A stretch of 64,000 nucleotides of DNA from Exiguobacterium marinum DSM 16307 (GTDB lineage Bacteria; Bacillota; Bacilli; Exiguobacteriales; Exiguobacteriaceae). A program made the translations under genes and the position numbers. The stretch spans positions 821,662-885,661 of the forward strand of contig NZ_KK211189.1 in the NCBI RefSeq assembly GCF_000620845.1. The letters are read 5' to 3'. Under the pieces are notes generated by a model. It was given only the letters and a program-made list of their open reading frames with translations, made no database searches and had not been told where the DNA came from. The number at the start of each line of letters is the position of its first letter. The stretch's first letter is position 1. Of this stretch, positions 54,816 through 61,075 are shown piece after piece.

Positions 54816-54867
54816 CCTATAACACTCCTTTATTATTCAGTCCTTACTTTGTTTTACCACTTAATTG

Positions 54868-54884
54868 TGAAAGAAACATGAAAG
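54868..54884 (+). promoter_or_regulatory. Direct repeat TGAAA-N6-TGAAAG in the oxidase/CopB intergenic region
   Basis: TGAAA (54868-54872) and TGAAAG (54879-54884) repeat with 11-bp period, preceded by TTG. The same arrangement occurs at 60483 in the other copper promoter region. It is a candidate site for the OmpR-type regulator encoded at 59386-60060. Confidence 0.55.
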
Positions 54885-54899
54885 CCTAAATTCGTTTAT

Positions 54900-54924
54900 T
54901 GATATACCGCATAGGGGTATATCA
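54900..54924. promoter_or_regulatory. CsoR-like operator ahead of copB
   Basis: TGATATACC and GGTATATCA form perfect 9-bp arms around GCATAGG. A TATACC...GGTATA palindrome with a short G-rich centre resembles operators of CsoR copper repressors. It lies 24 bases before the copB ATG, where it could cover the promoter. No csoR gene is in the window. Confidence 0.55.
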
Positions 54925-54948: not shown

Positions 54949-56958
54949 ATGGAGCATGAACATCACGAACATCATGAACACCATGAAGATAGTCATGATT
55001 CTCATCACGGAGGACATGGACATGAACATATGATTGAAGACTTTAAACGGCGCTTTTTTGTTTCGCTCGGTCTGATGATTCCGATCCTCCTGTTGTCGGA
55101 TATGATTCAAGAATGGCTTCGATTTGAACTTGATTTTCCATTTGAAAAAACAATCTTGTTTGTCTTAGCGACGATTGTGTATGTATACGGTGGATGGCCA
55201 TTCTTAAAAGGGAGTGTGGAGGAGCTGTGGGATCGTAGCCCGGGTATGATGATGCTGATTGGCTTGGCAATCAGTGTCGCTTACTTCTATAGTGCCGCTG
55301 TCGTCTTTGGATACGGAAGTGGCCATGACTTCTTTTGGGAACTCGCTTCACTGATTGTGATCATGCTACTCGGTCACTGGATTGAAATGCGTTCGGTCAT
55401 GGGGGCGTCAAATGCGTTGGAGCAACTCGTCCAACTGTTACCGAACGAGGCGCATCGCATCAACGGGGAAGAGACGGAGGACGTCCCGATCTCTGAGCTT
55501 AAAGAAGGAGATCGGATTCTCGTCAAACCAGGGGAACAGGTTCCGGTAGACGGGAAGATTATCAAAGGGCAGACGACAATCGATGAGTCGATGTTGACAG
55601 GTGAATCGGTCCCGGTCGAAAAGTCCGAAGGTGAGGACGTCATCGCAGGTTCCATCAACCAAGAAGGGAGTTTGACGATTGAAACGATCGGTACGGGAGA
55701 AACTACGTATTTGTCAAAAGTCATCGAGTTGGTGAGCGAAGCCCAAAAATCTAAGTCACGTGCTCAAAACCTAGCGAATCGTGCAGCAAAATACTTGTTT
55801 TACATCGCGATTGCTGCTGGAGTCATCACGTTCACCATCTGGTTCATGCTCGGCTATTCGGTCGGAACGGCGGTCGAACGGATGGTGACGGTCATGGTCA
55901 TCTCGTGTCCGCATGCACTCGGACTGGCGACACCGCTCGTCGTCGCAGTTTCGACAACGCTATCGGCGAAACAAGGTCTTCTCATCCGTAATCGGACCCA
56001 ATTTGAAGAAGCACGTCGACTCGATGCCATCATCTTTGATAAGACCGGTACGTTGACGGAAGGGAATTTCGGCGTCACGGACGTACAGGCGAGCTCATCT
56101 TATACGGAAGAAGATGTGTTACAACTTGCAGGATCGGTTGAGCGTGAGTCGCAACATCCACTCGCACAAGGAGTATTGAGAGAAATAGAAAAACGGGAGT
56201 TGAAGCTCTCCGCTGTCGATCATTTTGGCTCCATGACAGGTGTCGGTTTAGAAGGAACGGTCGACGGTGCGCACATACAAGTCGTCAGTCCACGTCATAT
56301 CCGTGATCAACACATTCAAATCGACGAAGAGACGTTCACGCGATTATCGGAAGAAGGCAAGACCGTCGTCTTTGTCTTGAAGGACGGGGAATGGGTCGGT
56401 ATGATTGCGATGGCCGATCTAGTACGGGAAGAGGCGAAGGAGACCGTCGAGGCTCTTCGTGAAAAAGGCATCCGCTCCATCATGTTGACGGGGGACAACG
56501 AGAAGGTCGCGCATTGGGTCGCGGGTCAGCTCGGTATCGATGACGTGTATGCCGAAGTATTGCCAGACGACAAGGCGAACCAGGTAAAAGACGTCCAGAA
56601 AGATGGCAGCAAAGTAGCGATGGTCGGAGATGGGATCAATGATGCCCCGGCCCTAGCGCAAGCGGATGTCGGCATCGCAATCGGGAGCGGGACAGACGTT
56701 GCCGTCGAGACGGCAGACATCGTCCTCGTCCGCAGTAATCCGAAAGATGTCCTATCGATTTTGGAACTTTCACAAAACACGTATCGTAAGATGATTCAAA
56801 ATCTATGGTGGGCCGCTGGTTACAACATCGTCGCCATCCCACTCGCTGCGGGCGTGTTGGCACCAATTGGCATTATCCTATCACCAGCCATCGGTGCCGT
56901 TTTGATGAGTCTAAGTACAATCATTGTCGCCATCAACGCCCGACTTTTGAAGATTTAA
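54949..56958 (+). CDS. copB: CopB-type copper/silver P-type ATPase
   Basis: Exports copper (P1B-3 type) at the cost of ATP. The 669-residue protein has a His-rich N-terminus (13 His in the first 27 residues) instead of CXXC domains. It also shows LTGESVPVEKSEGE (actuator), the membrane metal site CPH at 320-322, phosphorylation Asp364 in DKTGTLTEG, the HP motif SQHPLAQG, and the hinge MVGDGINDAPALAQADVGIAIGSGTDVA. CPH rather than CPC marks the CopB class. AAGGAGAG precedes the ATG at 8 bases. It heads an operon or closely spaced pair with the lipoprotein gene downstream. Confidence 0.95.
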   Translation: MEHEHHEHHEHHEDSHDSHHGGHGHEHMIEDFKRRFFVSLGLMIPILLLSDMIQEWLRFELDFPFEKTILFVLATIVYVYGGWPFLKGSVEELWDRSPGMMMLIGLAISVAYFYSAAVVFGYGSGHDFFWELASLIVIMLLGHWIEMRSVMGASNALEQLVQLLPNEAHRINGEETEDVPISELKEGDRILVKPGEQVPVDGKIIKGQTTIDESMLTGESVPVEKSEGEDVIAGSINQEGSLTIETIGTGETTYLSKVIELVSEAQKSKSRAQNLANRAAKYLFYIAIAAGVITFTIWFMLGYSVGTAVERMVTVMVISCPHALGLATPLVVAVSTTLSAKQGLLIRNRTQFEEARRLDAIIFDKTGTLTEGNFGVTDVQASSSYTEEDVLQLAGSVERESQHPLAQGVLREIEKRELKLSAVDHFGSMTGVGLEGTVDGAHIQVVSPRHIRDQHIQIDEETFTRLSEEGKTVVFVLKDGEWVGMIAMADLVREEAKETVEALREKGIRSIMLTGDNEKVAHWVAGQLGIDDVYAEVLPDDKANQVKDVQKDGSKVAMVGDGINDAPALAQADVGIAIGSGTDVAVETADIVLVRSNPKDVLSILELSQNTYRKMIQNLWWAAGYNIVAIPLAAGVLAPIGIILSPAIGAVLMSLSTIIVAINARLLKI

Positions 56959-57016: not shown

Positions 57017-57961
57017 ATGAAACGAACGTTAATGCTCTCACTATTACTGACTCCACTGCTCTTGTCGGCGTGTGGAGCAGAAGAGGCGCCATCGGATACA
57101 AACCAATCAGAAAACGAAACGACAGCGACACAGGACATGTGGCAACGCGTGGGAGAGGATGAAATGGTCTCCCACATCCACGGGGCAGGATTTTGGCAAG
57201 ACGACGAACGTCCTGTCATCGCAACTCATGCCGGGTTAATGGAATATCGAGAAGACGGTTGGTATACGCTTCCGACAAATCGCCATGACTATATGGGGTT
57301 TGAAGTCGTCGAGGATGGATTTTATGCGAGCGGTCACCCCGATCGTCGGACAGATTTCAAAAATCCACTTGGGGTCATGCATGGAAAAAATCATGGGGTG
57401 GTACTCGAGAGTCGGTCGCTTGAAGGCGAGGCAGATTTTCACTATATGAGCGCCGGTTATGCCACAGGTACACTCTACGTTTACCTGGAAGAAGCGACCT
57501 CGGAGCTAGAACCGGGATTTTATCGTTCCATCGATGGTGGGAGCTCATTTGAACCGATGCAGGTGCAAGGAATAGAGGAAGCGCAAGTGGCAGGTATCGT
57601 CGCCGATGCGACGGATGCGGAGCGCGTCTTTTTGTACGGGCCGTCCGGCATCCTCGTTTCAAGTAACTCTGGAGATTCGTTCGAGCCACTTGTTGAAACA
57701 GAACAAGTTGTCACGGTCGGAGCGGATGAGGGGCAGTTGGCCTACGTACGACAGACAGATGGTTCTTTCGAAGGGGTTCGTTTCAACTTAGACGATGAGT
57801 CGACAGAGACGTTCAACCTTCCAGAGCTTCAAGCGGACGCTGTGCCAATCGAATTGGCAGTCAAAGAGAAGCGTATGTTGCTCGTCACATCGGATAACAG
57901 CGTATATGAGTTTACAGACGGGGAATGGGAGATGCGCCTCGACAAAGGTGAGCTCAACTGA
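57017..57961 (+). CDS. Copper-island lipoprotein with beta-propeller-like repeats (F510_1955-type)
   Basis: A 314-residue exported lipoprotein: signal peptide and lipobox LLLSAC (Cys18), then an acidic linker. A domain with BNR/sialidase-like blades follows (ADDFHYM-type SAGYATGTLYVYLEE, GFYRSIDGGSSFEPMQ, GILVSSNSGDSFEPL). The segment SHIHGAGFWQDDERPVIATHAGLMEYREDGWY is typical of proteins annotated as F510_1955-family glycosylhydrolase, found beside metal-resistance genes. No active-site assignment is possible. It follows copB by 58 bases with GGAGGG. A role at the cell surface in copper handling is inferred only from location. Confidence 0.7.
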   Translation: MKRTLMLSLLLTPLLLSACGAEEAPSDTNQSENETTATQDMWQRVGEDEMVSHIHGAGFWQDDERPVIATHAGLMEYREDGWYTLPTNRHDYMGFEVVEDGFYASGHPDRRTDFKNPLGVMHGKNHGVVLESRSLEGEADFHYMSAGYATGTLYVYLEEATSELEPGFYRSIDGGSSFEPMQVQGIEEAQVAGIVADATDAERVFLYGPSGILVSSNSGDSFEPLVETEQVVTVGADEGQLAYVRQTDGSFEGVRFNLDDESTETFNLPELQADAVPIELAVKEKRMLLVTSDNSVYEFTDGEWEMRLDKGELN

Positions 57962-57963
57962 TC

Positions 57964-57999
57964 AAAAGACGCCTTTCCATTAAAGGATAGGCGTCTTTT
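57964..57999. terminator. Bidirectional terminator between the lipoprotein and kinase genes
   Basis: A 15-pair stem with one mismatch (57964-57978 with 57984-57998 approximately) flanked by A and T tracts, at convergent gene ends. Confidence 0.75.
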
Positions 58000-59389
58000 T
58001 GTCGAGTGGAAGCATGATGGTGAAAGAAGTGCCCGATGCGTCAGACGTGACTGTCAATTCTCCGCCATGACGGTTGACGATTTGGTCAGCGATGGCGAGT
58101 CCGAGTCCACTGCCACCGGTCTGTCGGGACCGTGATTTTTCCACACGATACAGGCGGTCAAAAATGTGAGGTAAATCTTTTTCAGGAATGCCTTTCCCAT
58201 TGTCTGTAATGGTCAGGATCAGGTGAGTGTCCGTGACGTTTGAGCGTAGGGAGACATGAGAGGCCTCACTATGTTCAATCGCATTATGGGCGATGGAGCG
58301 GAAGACTTGGAGCATCCGGTGCCGATCCAATGTAAGAGCGATGTCTTGTTGTCCCGCGTTCGGTGCAGCATCGAAGTGAACCGTCGTCATCCGGAACATC
58401 GTATCGAGCATTCGACGTAAGTCCGCACAAAACGTCGTGACGGTCACTTCTTCTCGGTGCAACAAGAATGTGTTTTCATCGAGCTGTGCCAATTGAAACG
58501 CATTTTCGACGAGCTCTGTGAGCGACCGGCTCTCATCTAAAATCGTTTGAATCGACTGTTTGCGTAATGATTCGGGCGTGCTTTCTTTCGAAGCGATTTC
58601 GGCGTAACCCCTCAAGTAAGTGAGAGGGGTCTTGATTTCATGCGATAGGTCGGATAAAAACTGACGACGTTCCCGCCGTAGTCTTGATAGTTCCACTGAC
58701 ATCGATTCGATGGCACGCGCTAATTCACCGATTTCGTCGACACGATTCGTCGGTAACCGTAAATCGTCTGGGTTTGTCAATACGTTCTCCGTTGCTTGTT
58801 TCAATGATTGAATTGGTTTTGAAATCAATCGACTCAAGAGGATGAACGTCAAGACGGTCGTTACGAGCGCGATCGCCGTGATATATAGGAATCGCCACTG
58901 GAGCCGATGGCTAATTCCATGAATGATTTCGGTCGGTAAAAACATATAGACGTATCCATACCGTCTGTCGGTATCATCTGTGATTGGCGTACGAACGCTC
59001 AAATACGGTTCGTTTTCCCAGTCGTCCTCTAGGACAGTCGTGTCGTCGAAGGGGCCAGTTTGTTTTTTAGAATCGACTGTATCGGCAAGGACTTGGGGAA
59101 AGAAGCGTGAAGTCTGAAGAAGATGATGCGTGGGATCAGTGATGGCGACTTTCGTATCGGTCTCACTTTCCATGGTCGCTACATGATCAATCGTCTCTTC
59201 GGAAAAATTCATTGCTAATACGCTCGCATGGCTCTCGGCCCGAGATTCGAGGCGATTGATTTCTTCTACAACGCGTTCGCCGAGAAGCGTGTGATAGAGG
59301 AGAAGAAACAACACACCTTCAATCAATAGGGTTGATAGGAGAAAGACGAGGCTGATGCGAAACGGTAGACTGTTACGACTTCGCTTCAT
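57980..59389 (-). CDS. Envelope sensor histidine kinase of the copper island
   Basis: The 469-residue kinase has TM1 (about 10-32) and an extracellular sensor (about 33-165: HVATMESETDTKVAITDPTHHLLQTS). TM2 (about 170-192) is followed by HAMP, HisKA (FLSDLSHEIKTPLTYLRGYAEIA), and HATPase (IAHNAIEHSEASH, ITDNGKGIPEKDLPHIFDR, GGSGLGLAIADQIV). ATG 59389 overlaps the regulator stop (ATGA), so a longer start at 59428 is rejected. Its extracellular histidines could bind metal. The copper role is inferred from the neighbours and the shared TGAAA-N6-TGAAAG repeats. Confidence 0.88.
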   Translation of the reverse strand: MKRSRNSLPFRISLVFLLSTLLIEGVLFLLLYHTLLGERVVEEINRLESRAESHASVLAMNFSEETIDHVATMESETDTKVAITDPTHHLLQTSRFFPQVLADTVDSKKQTGPFDDTTVLEDDWENEPYLSVRTPITDDTDRRYGYVYMFLPTEIIHGISHRLQWRFLYITAIALVTTVLTFILLSRLISKPIQSLKQATENVLTNPDDLRLPTNRVDEIGELARAIESMSVELSRLRRERRQFLSDLSHEIKTPLTYLRGYAEIASKESTPESLRKQSIQTILDESRSLTELVENAFQLAQLDENTFLLHREEVTVTTFCADLRRMLDTMFRMTTVHFDAAPNAGQQDIALTLDRHRMLQVFRSIAHNAIEHSEASHVSLRSNVTDTHLILTITDNGKGIPEKDLPHIFDRLYRVEKSRSRQTGGSGLGLAIADQIVNRHGGELTVTSDASGTSFTIMLPLDKKTPIL

Positions 59390-60060
59390 CCGGAACGCTC
59401 CTCGGTCCATCGATATCCACGTCCCCATACCGTCTTTAAATAATCATCAATCGGAAATCCTGCATCTCCTAACTTTTCTCGAATCATACGAATATGCGCA
59501 TCAACTGTGCGAGGGTCGGATTCTGCAGAGTAGGGCCAGACGAGATCAAATAAATCTAGGCGATTGAAGAGTCGATTCGGGTGCTGAAGGAACAGTTTCA
59601 AGATGGCCGTCGCTTTCGGTGTGAGGACAATCTCTTGTTCTTCATACAAAACGCGTCCGCTCTCCTCATCGTAACGAAGTGGTCCGTATTGGATGTTGAC
59701 GACACGGGTCCGGCGTAAGACGGCGCGAATACGGGCGAGGAGCACGTTCCCATCGAACGGTTTGGTGACGTAATCATCCGCTCCGGCATCTAATCCCTGG
59801 ATGGTCGTTTCATTGTCTGAACGTGCCGTCAATAAGACGACAGGTAATGCCGGGTCCATCGTCTTTAACTGACGACAAAGTGAGATCCCATCTACTTCTG
59901 GCATCATAATATCTAAAAGGACGAGATCCGGACGCTCTTCGATTTTGTCGAGTGCGGAACGAGCATCGCTCGCCTCGATGCAAGAGTACCCGTCACCCTC
60001 AAGAAACAGACGAATCAAATGTCTCATCTTTTCTTCATCGTCTACAATGAGAATCTTCAT
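59386..60060 (-). CDS. OmpR-family response regulator of the copper island
   Basis: The 224-residue protein has a receiver domain (IVDDEEKMRHLIRLFLEG; phospho-Asp in LVLLDIMMPEVDG; LLTARSDN; DDYVTKPFDGN) and a winged-helix output domain (about 125-224: IVLTPKATAILKLFLQHPNRLFNRLDLFDLVWP, TVDAHIRMIREKLGD, VWGRGYRW). It is translationally coupled to the kinase downstream and lies 30 bases after a MurE-N-like gene. Members of this family bind tandem 11-bp-period repeats such as those at 60483 and 54868. Confidence 0.92.
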   Translation of the reverse strand: MKILIVDDEEKMRHLIRLFLEGDGYSCIEASDARSALDKIEERPDLVLLDIMMPEVDGISLCRQLKTMDPALPVVLLTARSDNETTIQGLDAGADDYVTKPFDGNVLLARIRAVLRRTRVVNIQYGPLRYDEESGRVLYEEQEIVLTPKATAILKLFLQHPNRLFNRLDLFDLVWPYSAESDPRTVDAHIRMIREKLGDAGFPIDDYLKTVWGRGYRWTEERSG

Positions 60061-60090: not shown

Positions 60091-60429
60091 TTATCGTTCC
60101 GCGTGCTTCGCGTGATTTCCTTCCGTGGCAAAAAGAGTCTGTAGTTGTTCACATGCGCGTGCGACGTCTCGACAGTAAATGACGGGCACTCTCGCGTCAA
60201 TCGGGCGATCCGTGACAATGGCGACTGCCCCGTTCCGAATGGCTGCCTTCACTAAATCGACACCCCGTTCATTAATTGGACGTTTGCATACATATAAAAA
60301 AGTTTTTTTTGTTTTTTCTGGTGTCGTTCCGATGCCGCGAATCGCCATCTCTTCAGGACGGTCGAGATACGACCAAGATAAGACAGAATCCAGTGTTGCC
60401 AATACGTCACGTAACGTCAGCTCTTGCAT
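60091..60429 (-). CDS. Stand-alone Mur-ligase N-terminal (MurE-N-like) domain protein
   Basis: The 112-residue protein resembles only the first domain of UDP-MurNAc-dipeptide ligases. A short helical opening (QELTLRDVLATL) is followed by IRGIGTTPEKTKKTFLYVCKRPINERGVDLVKAAIRNGAVAIVTDRPI and VPVIYCRDVARACEQLQTLFA, which parallel the MurE pattern of DSR..PGdlFvc...G.dfi..Ai.nGAvAiv...vPvi.V.D.r.al..la..fy. ATPase and C-terminal domains are absent. The start at 60429, after AAGGAAGGGG, is preferred over 60450. It is the first gene of the regulator-kinase operon. A nucleotide- or muropeptide-sensing adaptor is conceivable. Confidence 0.65.
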   Translation of the reverse strand: MQELTLRDVLATLDSVLSWSYLDRPEEMAIRGIGTTPEKTKKTFLYVCKRPINERGVDLVKAAIRNGAVAIVTDRPIDARVPVIYCRDVARACEQLQTLFATEGNHAKHAER

Positions 60430-60482
60430 TGTCGTTCCCCTTCCTTGCATAATCTCAATTTCACTAGTGTACCCGACGTTTG

Positions 60483-60499
60483 TGAAAAAGAAGTGAAAG
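60483..60499. promoter_or_regulatory. Direct repeat TGAAA-N6-TGAAAG between the regulator operon and the DUF305 gene
   Basis: TGAAA (60483-60487) and TGAAAG (60494-60499) repeat with 11-bp period after TTTG, the same arrangement as at 54868. It lies between the divergent MurE-N-like and DUF305 genes, where autoregulation and control of the DUF305 gene are both possible. Confidence 0.55.
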
Positions 60500-60598
60500 T
60501 TTAGAAGAACACATCAAGCATAAGAATATTTAGGTTTGAGTTTAATACAGGTAGGTAAAACTATTTCTACACACATAACTTAAGAAAGGGTGAACGAA

Positions 60599-61075
60599 AT
60601 GAAATCGTACGGTAAATTTGGAATTATGATTGCAGTCTCGACATTCCTGATGTATTGGCTCATGTATTTGAACGTCTTTCAAATTAATCATATCTTCTTT
60701 AGTCAGACGAGGTTATATATGGCACTCATCATGGGATCAGTCATGGCATTCGTCATGCTTCTTTTCATGTGGGGAATGTATAAGAATAAAACCCTTAACT
60801 TTATCATTCTAGGTGTCAGCGCCCTCGTCTTCAGTGCCTCACTCTGGCTCGTTAGGAGCCAGACGACCGTCGATGATGTCAGTTGGATGAAAGCGATGAT
60901 CCCGCACCACTCGATTGCCATCTTGACAAGTGAACGCGCTGAAATTGAAGACCCGCGCGTCAAAGAACTGTCGGAAGAAATCATCAAGGCACAGCGCCGT
61001 GAAATCGAAGAGATGAAGCAGTTGATTAAAGATTTAGAGGATGAGGAAGAGAACGCAGAAGAGAATCAAGATTAA
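60599..61075 (+). CDS. DUF305-domain membrane protein
   Basis: The 158-residue protein has three to four hydrophobic segments (about 6-28, 42-62, 68-85) followed by a helical, exposed DUF305 segment WMKAMIPHHSIAILTSERAEIEDPRVKELSEEIIKAQRREIEEMKQLIKDL and an acidic tail. The MIPHH motif is the conserved heart of DUF305, a domain repeatedly found in copper-resistance loci and thought to bind metal. GTG 60590 is in frame, but the AAGAAAGGG site points to ATG 60599. It is divergent from the regulator operon and monocistronic. Confidence 0.85.
   Translation: MKSYGKFGIMIAVSTFLMYWLMYLNVFQINHIFFSQTRLYMALIMGSVMAFVMLLFMWGMYKNKTLNFIILGVSALVFSASLWLVRSQTTVDDVSWMKAMIPHHSIAILTSERAEIEDPRVKELSEEIIKAQRREIEEMKQLIKDLEDEEENAEENQD

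Follow-up and report, generated by a model that had tools for sequence, protein, structure and literature searches.

The locus described here raises the question of why an operon for a two-component system should open with a gene that encodes the first domain of a MurE cell-wall ligase and no more of that enzyme. The gene, for which we use the name murN, was noticed in a preliminary description of a 64,000-nucleotide stretch of Exiguobacterium marinum DSM 16307 DNA (the window), and its position and those of its neighbours are collected in Table 1. A Shine-Dalgarno-like sequence, AAGGAAGGGG, is situated directly 5′ of the murN ATG within an optional upstream extension of seven codons, and for this reason the 112-residue start is preferred over the extended one. 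The frame is open in five of the six Exiguobacterium genomes that have the 112-residue form, with the closest named relatives being E. aestuarii AmN35-10, Exiguobacterium sp. s48, Exiguobacterium sp. s124, E. profundum and E. qingdaonense. The sixth copy, that of sp. s48, has a TGA at codon 87, which may be a sequencing error or else a loss that occurred recently. An antisense or overlapping ORF was ruled out as the source of the conservation of murN, because the other reading frames are interrupted in the six genomes.

Table 1. Genes and promoter elements of the murN locus, in window coordinates.
Feature	Position	Strand	Remarks
Near-copy (one mismatch) of direct repeat, upstream of copB	54867..54883	minus	
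CsoR-like operator (putative) ATACCGCATAGGGGTAT, upstream of copB	54904..54920	plus	
Copper-type P1B ATPase, copB-like	54949..56958	plus	Faces the operon; TIGR01511 E = 5.1e-197
F510_1955-family lipoprotein	57017..57961	plus	Between copB and kinase; NCBIfam NF045728 above cut-off
HAMP-HisKA-HATPase sensor kinase (HK)	57980..59428	minus	Operon gene 3; overlaps RR gene
OmpR/PhoB-family response regulator (RR)	59386..60060	minus	Operon gene 2; Pfam Response_reg 3.5e-33, Trans_reg_C 3.1e-21
murN, stand-alone MurE domain-1 protein, 112 aa	60091..60429	minus	ATG at 60429, stop at 60091; truncated from full-length MurE3 paralog
Perfect direct repeat TTTCAC-N5-TTTCAC	60482..60498	minus	In divergent promoter; candidate response-regulator box
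DUF305/CopM-like small membrane protein	60590..61075	plus	Divergent from murN; Pfam DUF305 8.3e-11

The description of murN as a real ORF consisting of the MurE N-terminal domain only was borne out by several searches. Among NCBIfam profiles, murN matched MurE models alone and within their first ~100 positions, with an E-value of 4.8e-7 to PRK00139.1-4 and an alignment to positions 3–78 of the 472 in TIGR01085, at scores below the curated MurE family cut-offs (28.7 bits versus 373, and 22.5 versus 257.3 for TIGR01085). A search of the PDB aligned it to residues 19–84 of the Thermotoga maritima MurE (4bub), and a Pfam search of murN returned no match. The P-loop (TGTNGKT) and central ATPase domain are absent from the 112 residues, as is the C-terminal domain with its amino-acid-selecting motif, so that the ATPase and amino-acid-adding parts are missing as had been proposed. 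In most species the syntenic full-length paralog described below, in which the P-loop is present, has 43–47% identity to murN over its domain 1, with E-values down to 6.6e-25. An AlphaFold2 model of murN built from a 20-sequence alignment that included intact MurE relatives had a pLDDT of 86.5 and a pTM of 0.78, with the last nine residues uncertain, and Foldseek matched the model to the N-terminal domains of MurE, MurF and the plastid protein PAP11, the last being the top match (TM-score to T. maritima MurE, 0.72). The five fragments alone gave a pLDDT of 42.5 and no usable model, and the claim for the fold therefore leans on the homology, which is independently strong. Profiles and structure prediction thus confirm that murN has MurE domain-1 homology and the corresponding predicted fold, the latter being dependent on the presence of intact relatives in the alignment.

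As the preliminary description had stated, murN is the first gene of a regulator-kinase operon (murN-RR-HK), and its stop codon is 30 bp from the start of the RR gene. The genes around the operon point to copper. The copB-like ATPase scores far over the TIGR01511 cut-off (656 bits versus 397) and has the same linkage in relatives, where the F510_1955-family lipoprotein is also a conserved neighbour. The divergent DUF305 protein, found in 17 of 19 Exiguobacterium genomes, matches NCBIfam CopM at 1.7e-11, which is under the curated cut-off, making a function in copper handling possible. The divergent promoter contains the perfect direct repeat TTTCAC-N5-TTTCAC, with a −10-like TAxACT ~10 bp downstream of it. 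This spacing is fixed across genomes, and all 17 genomes of the genus in which the divergent promoter is intact have the repeat without a mismatch. It is the one mismatch-free match within the window, in which there are three matches with at most one mismatch versus 0.59 expected. That count is suggestive only, and the weight of the repeat as evidence lies in its conservation. The one-mismatch copy upstream of copB is kept in the six genomes with the truncated gene and in a seventh, G003, whereas in others the copy is weaker, with two mismatches. The element ATACCGCATAGGGGTAT we take to be a CsoR-like operator from its resemblance to known CsoR sites. Based on these sequence features (copB, the CopM-like DUF305 protein, the shared repeat and the CsoR-like operator), a link of the locus to copper is well supported. 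We infer that copper is also the signal of the sensor kinase, the neighbouring genes speaking for the locus alone. The region upstream of copB has both the CsoR-like operator and the near-copy of the two-component repeat, an arrangement that suggests dual copper control of copB.

The origin of murN was evident from a survey of 19 Exiguobacterium genomes, one per species. The order of a divergent DUF305 gene, a mur gene, RR and HK is kept in 17 of the 19 and the RR gene adjoins the mur gene in 17, which substantiates the conserved linkage of mur gene and two-component pair that was to be checked. In nine genomes the gene in the mur position is full-length (480–494 aa), with matches to all three Mur ligase Pfam domains and the motifs TGTNGKTTT, NL[ST][HQ]DHLDYHG, YxxTKAxLF, ERDRxKR, HDPR and GKGHD. 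The six with the 112-residue form make up the clade of the window. Among the remaining genomes, G015 has a MurE3 gene whose reading frame is broken by a frameshift near its codon 50 (locus L048, about 9979), which may be real or a sequencing error; a contig end in G018 leaves the C-terminus of the ligase alone before RR, without the DUF305 gene; and G006 is without the whole locus. The mur gene is also missing from G003, where its neighbours are 416 bp apart (locus L054, 7195–7611) and the promoter repeat is intact. Short, weak MurE-like stretches occur in the right order in that gap (the best on the correct strand being 21 aa, E = 0.002), matches which are not significant over the many tests made.

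The full-length gene is a third MurE of these genomes (MurE3), ~40% identical to MurE2, whereas MurE1 and MurE2 occur across the family. No relative of MurE3 with >43% identity was found outside the genus in 398 genomes of the class, and the DUF305 gene next to it has no counterpart in the sister genus. Stand-alone homologs of the fragment were not found elsewhere in 250 genomes of the class, all other matches at E ≤ 1e-7 being in open frames of at least 489 aa, and a search for plasmid copies of the fragment identified ordinary full-length murE only. On the RR+HK tree the genomes with the truncated gene are monophyletic, with the gene-less G003 beside them, and a single truncation is therefore the simplest history. 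As a check for a fusion of domain 1 to the C-terminus by in-frame deletion, the murN tail was aligned locally to MurE3 tails, giving scores marginally above random. MurE2 is full-length in Exiguobacterium and in the sister genus (for example, at 662674-664077 of contig C2 in G000; loci L003 and L084). MurE2 and MurE3 (loci L010–L018) have HDVR/HDPR and GKGHD in common in place of the DDPR and GKGHE of MurE1, which hints that the third amino acid or the substrate is a different one.

Two residues of the retained domain bear on its possible function. Cysteines 48 and 86 are invariant in all aligned fragments and MurE3 copies, and at position 86 all 36 MurE1 and MurE2 copies have V, L or I, so that a cysteine there is specific to the copper-linked paralog. 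Possibly, these cysteines let murN respond to Cu(I) or to thiol stress, and the copper gene neighbourhood is in keeping with a small copper-response protein of that kind. Cysteine 48 is shared with MurE2, however (29 of 36 copies), and the conservation of both residues may be structural. We consider it rather unlikely that such a response is the function of murN, an idea that can also be treated as a sub-hypothesis of the partner or adaptor role which we favor.

The 112-residue genes are under purifying selection. A maximum-likelihood codon model gave an omega of 0.139 across the six copies (lnL −985.4 versus −1035.3 at omega = 1, with the best kappa on a grid), and pairwise dN/dS values were 0.06–0.17. 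Substitutions at codon positions 1, 2 and 3 numbered 20, 13 and 65, respectively. The lone domain is as constrained as the same domain within the enzyme, since omega was 0.133 for domain 1 inside intact MurE3 (MurE3 domains 2+3, 0.166), and the neighbouring genes have lower values than murN (RR, 0.042; HK, 0.078; DUF305, 0.038). The single-gene trees of HK, RR, murN and DUF305 disagree among the six species, and recombination among species at the locus is therefore likely, although it should not affect the omega comparison by much.

These results bear directly on the possibility that murN is a functionless, decaying pseudogene remnant of MurE3. The preliminary description had itself named a degenerating murE fragment absent from relatives as the outcome that would speak against a function, and murN is indeed a fragment of a paralog that is full-length in relatives. 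Truncation relative to the sister species is what decay would produce, and the nonsense codon in s48 and the loss of the gene from G003 indicate that murN is dispensable. The stem branch that leads to the fragments is also long for domain 1, with 1.34 substitutions/site versus 0.32 for RR+HK with the topology fixed. That ratio of 4.2, compared with 1.57 within the fragment clade and 1.52 elsewhere on the tree, we count as evidence of a change of role, but it would fit relaxed selection as well. However, all divergence among the six copies postdates the truncation, and for that divergence a neutral model (omega = 1) is worse by about 50 lnL units and is rejected. There are zero indels in the 336 bp of murN across the six genomes, and its start codon, ribosome site and promoter repeat are retained. 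Five of the six copies are thus not degenerating, and we regard decay as unlikely and strongly disfavoured; the purifying selection fits a retained function.

A retained function need not reside in the protein, as murN could be a translational leader of which translation alone matters, coupling expression of the RR gene to its own. Its place as first gene, with its stop so close to the RR start, would suit that role. The constraint, though, is on amino acids, extends over the whole length and is strongest in the core beta and alpha elements, and the RR gene has a strong ribosome site of its own (AAAGGAGG), making a leader function very unlikely.

What the protein is unlikely to do is indicated by the motifs it has lost. 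The motifs TDSR and GYTVDGH, which we take to be the uridine/UDP contacts of MurE structures, are present in 36 of 36 MurE1 and MurE2 copies checked. Their counterparts in MurE3 are [FILS]SSK and G[YH]RxDGH. All fragments have TTPE and PINERGV in those positions (DSR to TPE, Ser to Pro; GYxxDGH to PINERGV), replacements that were part of the burst of change which preceded the renewed constraint. The label UDP-MurNAc-binding-type given earlier to this domain is consequently apt for its ancestry, but the uridine-site motifs themselves are gone. In the Staphylococcus aureus MurE structure, domain 1 provides the uridine site only, and it is domain 2 that forms the greater part of the ligand pocket (PMC3829189). 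With those motifs lost and domain 2 absent, binding of UDP-MurNAc peptides by murN is unlikely. The earlier proposal that murN is a cytoplasmic sensor of such cell-wall precursors (or of UDP) feeding the two-component system, which had in its favor the uridine site of MurE domain 1 (PMC3829189) and the conserved place of murN in the operon of a sensor kinase, is therefore the most improbable of the readings considered.

The explanation that we favor, with about an even chance of being correct, is that murN is a truncated and exapted Mur-ligase domain which would act as a non-catalytic partner or adaptor in a copper/envelope-stress operon; the decay, leader and precursor-sensor readings are all less likely. 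Its homology, its synteny with full-length copies, its truncation in a single clade, the loss of its motifs and its purifying selection after truncation are observations, and they suggest that the retained domain has acquired another function, probably in regulation or in the binding of a partner, because the catalytic two-thirds of the enzyme were lost and yet the first domain is conserved by selection. In the history that we propose, the lineage-specific, copper-locus-linked paralog MurE3 would have been at the locus in the ancestor, and its domains 2 and 3 would have been lost in the ancestor of six Exiguobacterium species. Domain 1 would then have changed quickly, losing its uridine-site motifs, before coming again under constraint as a separate 112-residue protein encoded at the head of the murN-RR-HK operon. 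Potentially, it is a small soluble protein whose partner would most likely be the adjacent kinase or regulator or a Mur enzyme, and it would tune the copper/envelope-stress response. The locus amounts to a natural experiment, with the same operon carrying a whole ligase in some species and its first domain alone in others, both constrained to an equal degree. As the role of the retained domain cannot be catalysis, murN opens a direct way to study what Mur ligases do beyond catalysis, as well as the tie between copper stress and cell-wall synthesis.

Several known systems can be compared with murN. Its sequence and predicted fold are like those of domain 1 of MurE (UDP-MurNAc-L-Ala-D-Glu:L-Lys/meso-DAP ligase), but it is without domains 2 (ATPase) and 3 (amino acid), its uridine-site motifs are replaced and, lacking the ATPase and amino-acid parts, it cannot be a ligase. 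With MurE3 it shares the locus, the promoter repeat, the downstream RR-HK pair and C48/C86, whereas the P-loop TGTNGKTTT, the carbamylated-Lys region and GKGHD that MurE3 keeps are all lost. The operon has the OmpR-family regulator, HAMP kinase, copper ATPase and CopM-like protein of CusRS/CopRS-like systems with a P1B ATPase, although, unlike that type, its RR and HK score below the curated heavy-metal family cut-offs (125.3 versus 279.2 bits for cztR_silR_copR and 157.2 versus 292.55 bits for cztS_silS_copS). To our knowledge, no operon of that type has a Mur-ligase gene or fragment. In the open-licence literature we found no paper on a stand-alone Mur ligase N-terminal domain and, among the titles and abstracts listed, none that places MurE within a two-component operon for copper. 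It is possible, and we propose it tentatively, that a Mur-ligase N-terminal domain, once separated from the rest of the enzyme, was exapted to be a small accessory protein dedicated to a copper/envelope-stress two-component operon, and that accessory proteins of this kind are new to two-component systems. The N-terminal uridine-binding domain of LpxD has a fold similar to that of murN by Foldseek; it belongs to an acyltransferase with no detected sequence relation to murN, and the domain type evidently recurs as a module. PAP11 retains the whole MurE architecture and differs from murN in its complex and lineage, making the likeness one of analogy and not of relationship. As a MurE-family protein that serves the plastid-encoded RNA polymerase (PMC9456514), a part of the gene-expression machinery and not a ligase, it is nonetheless a precedent for the role suggested here for murN.
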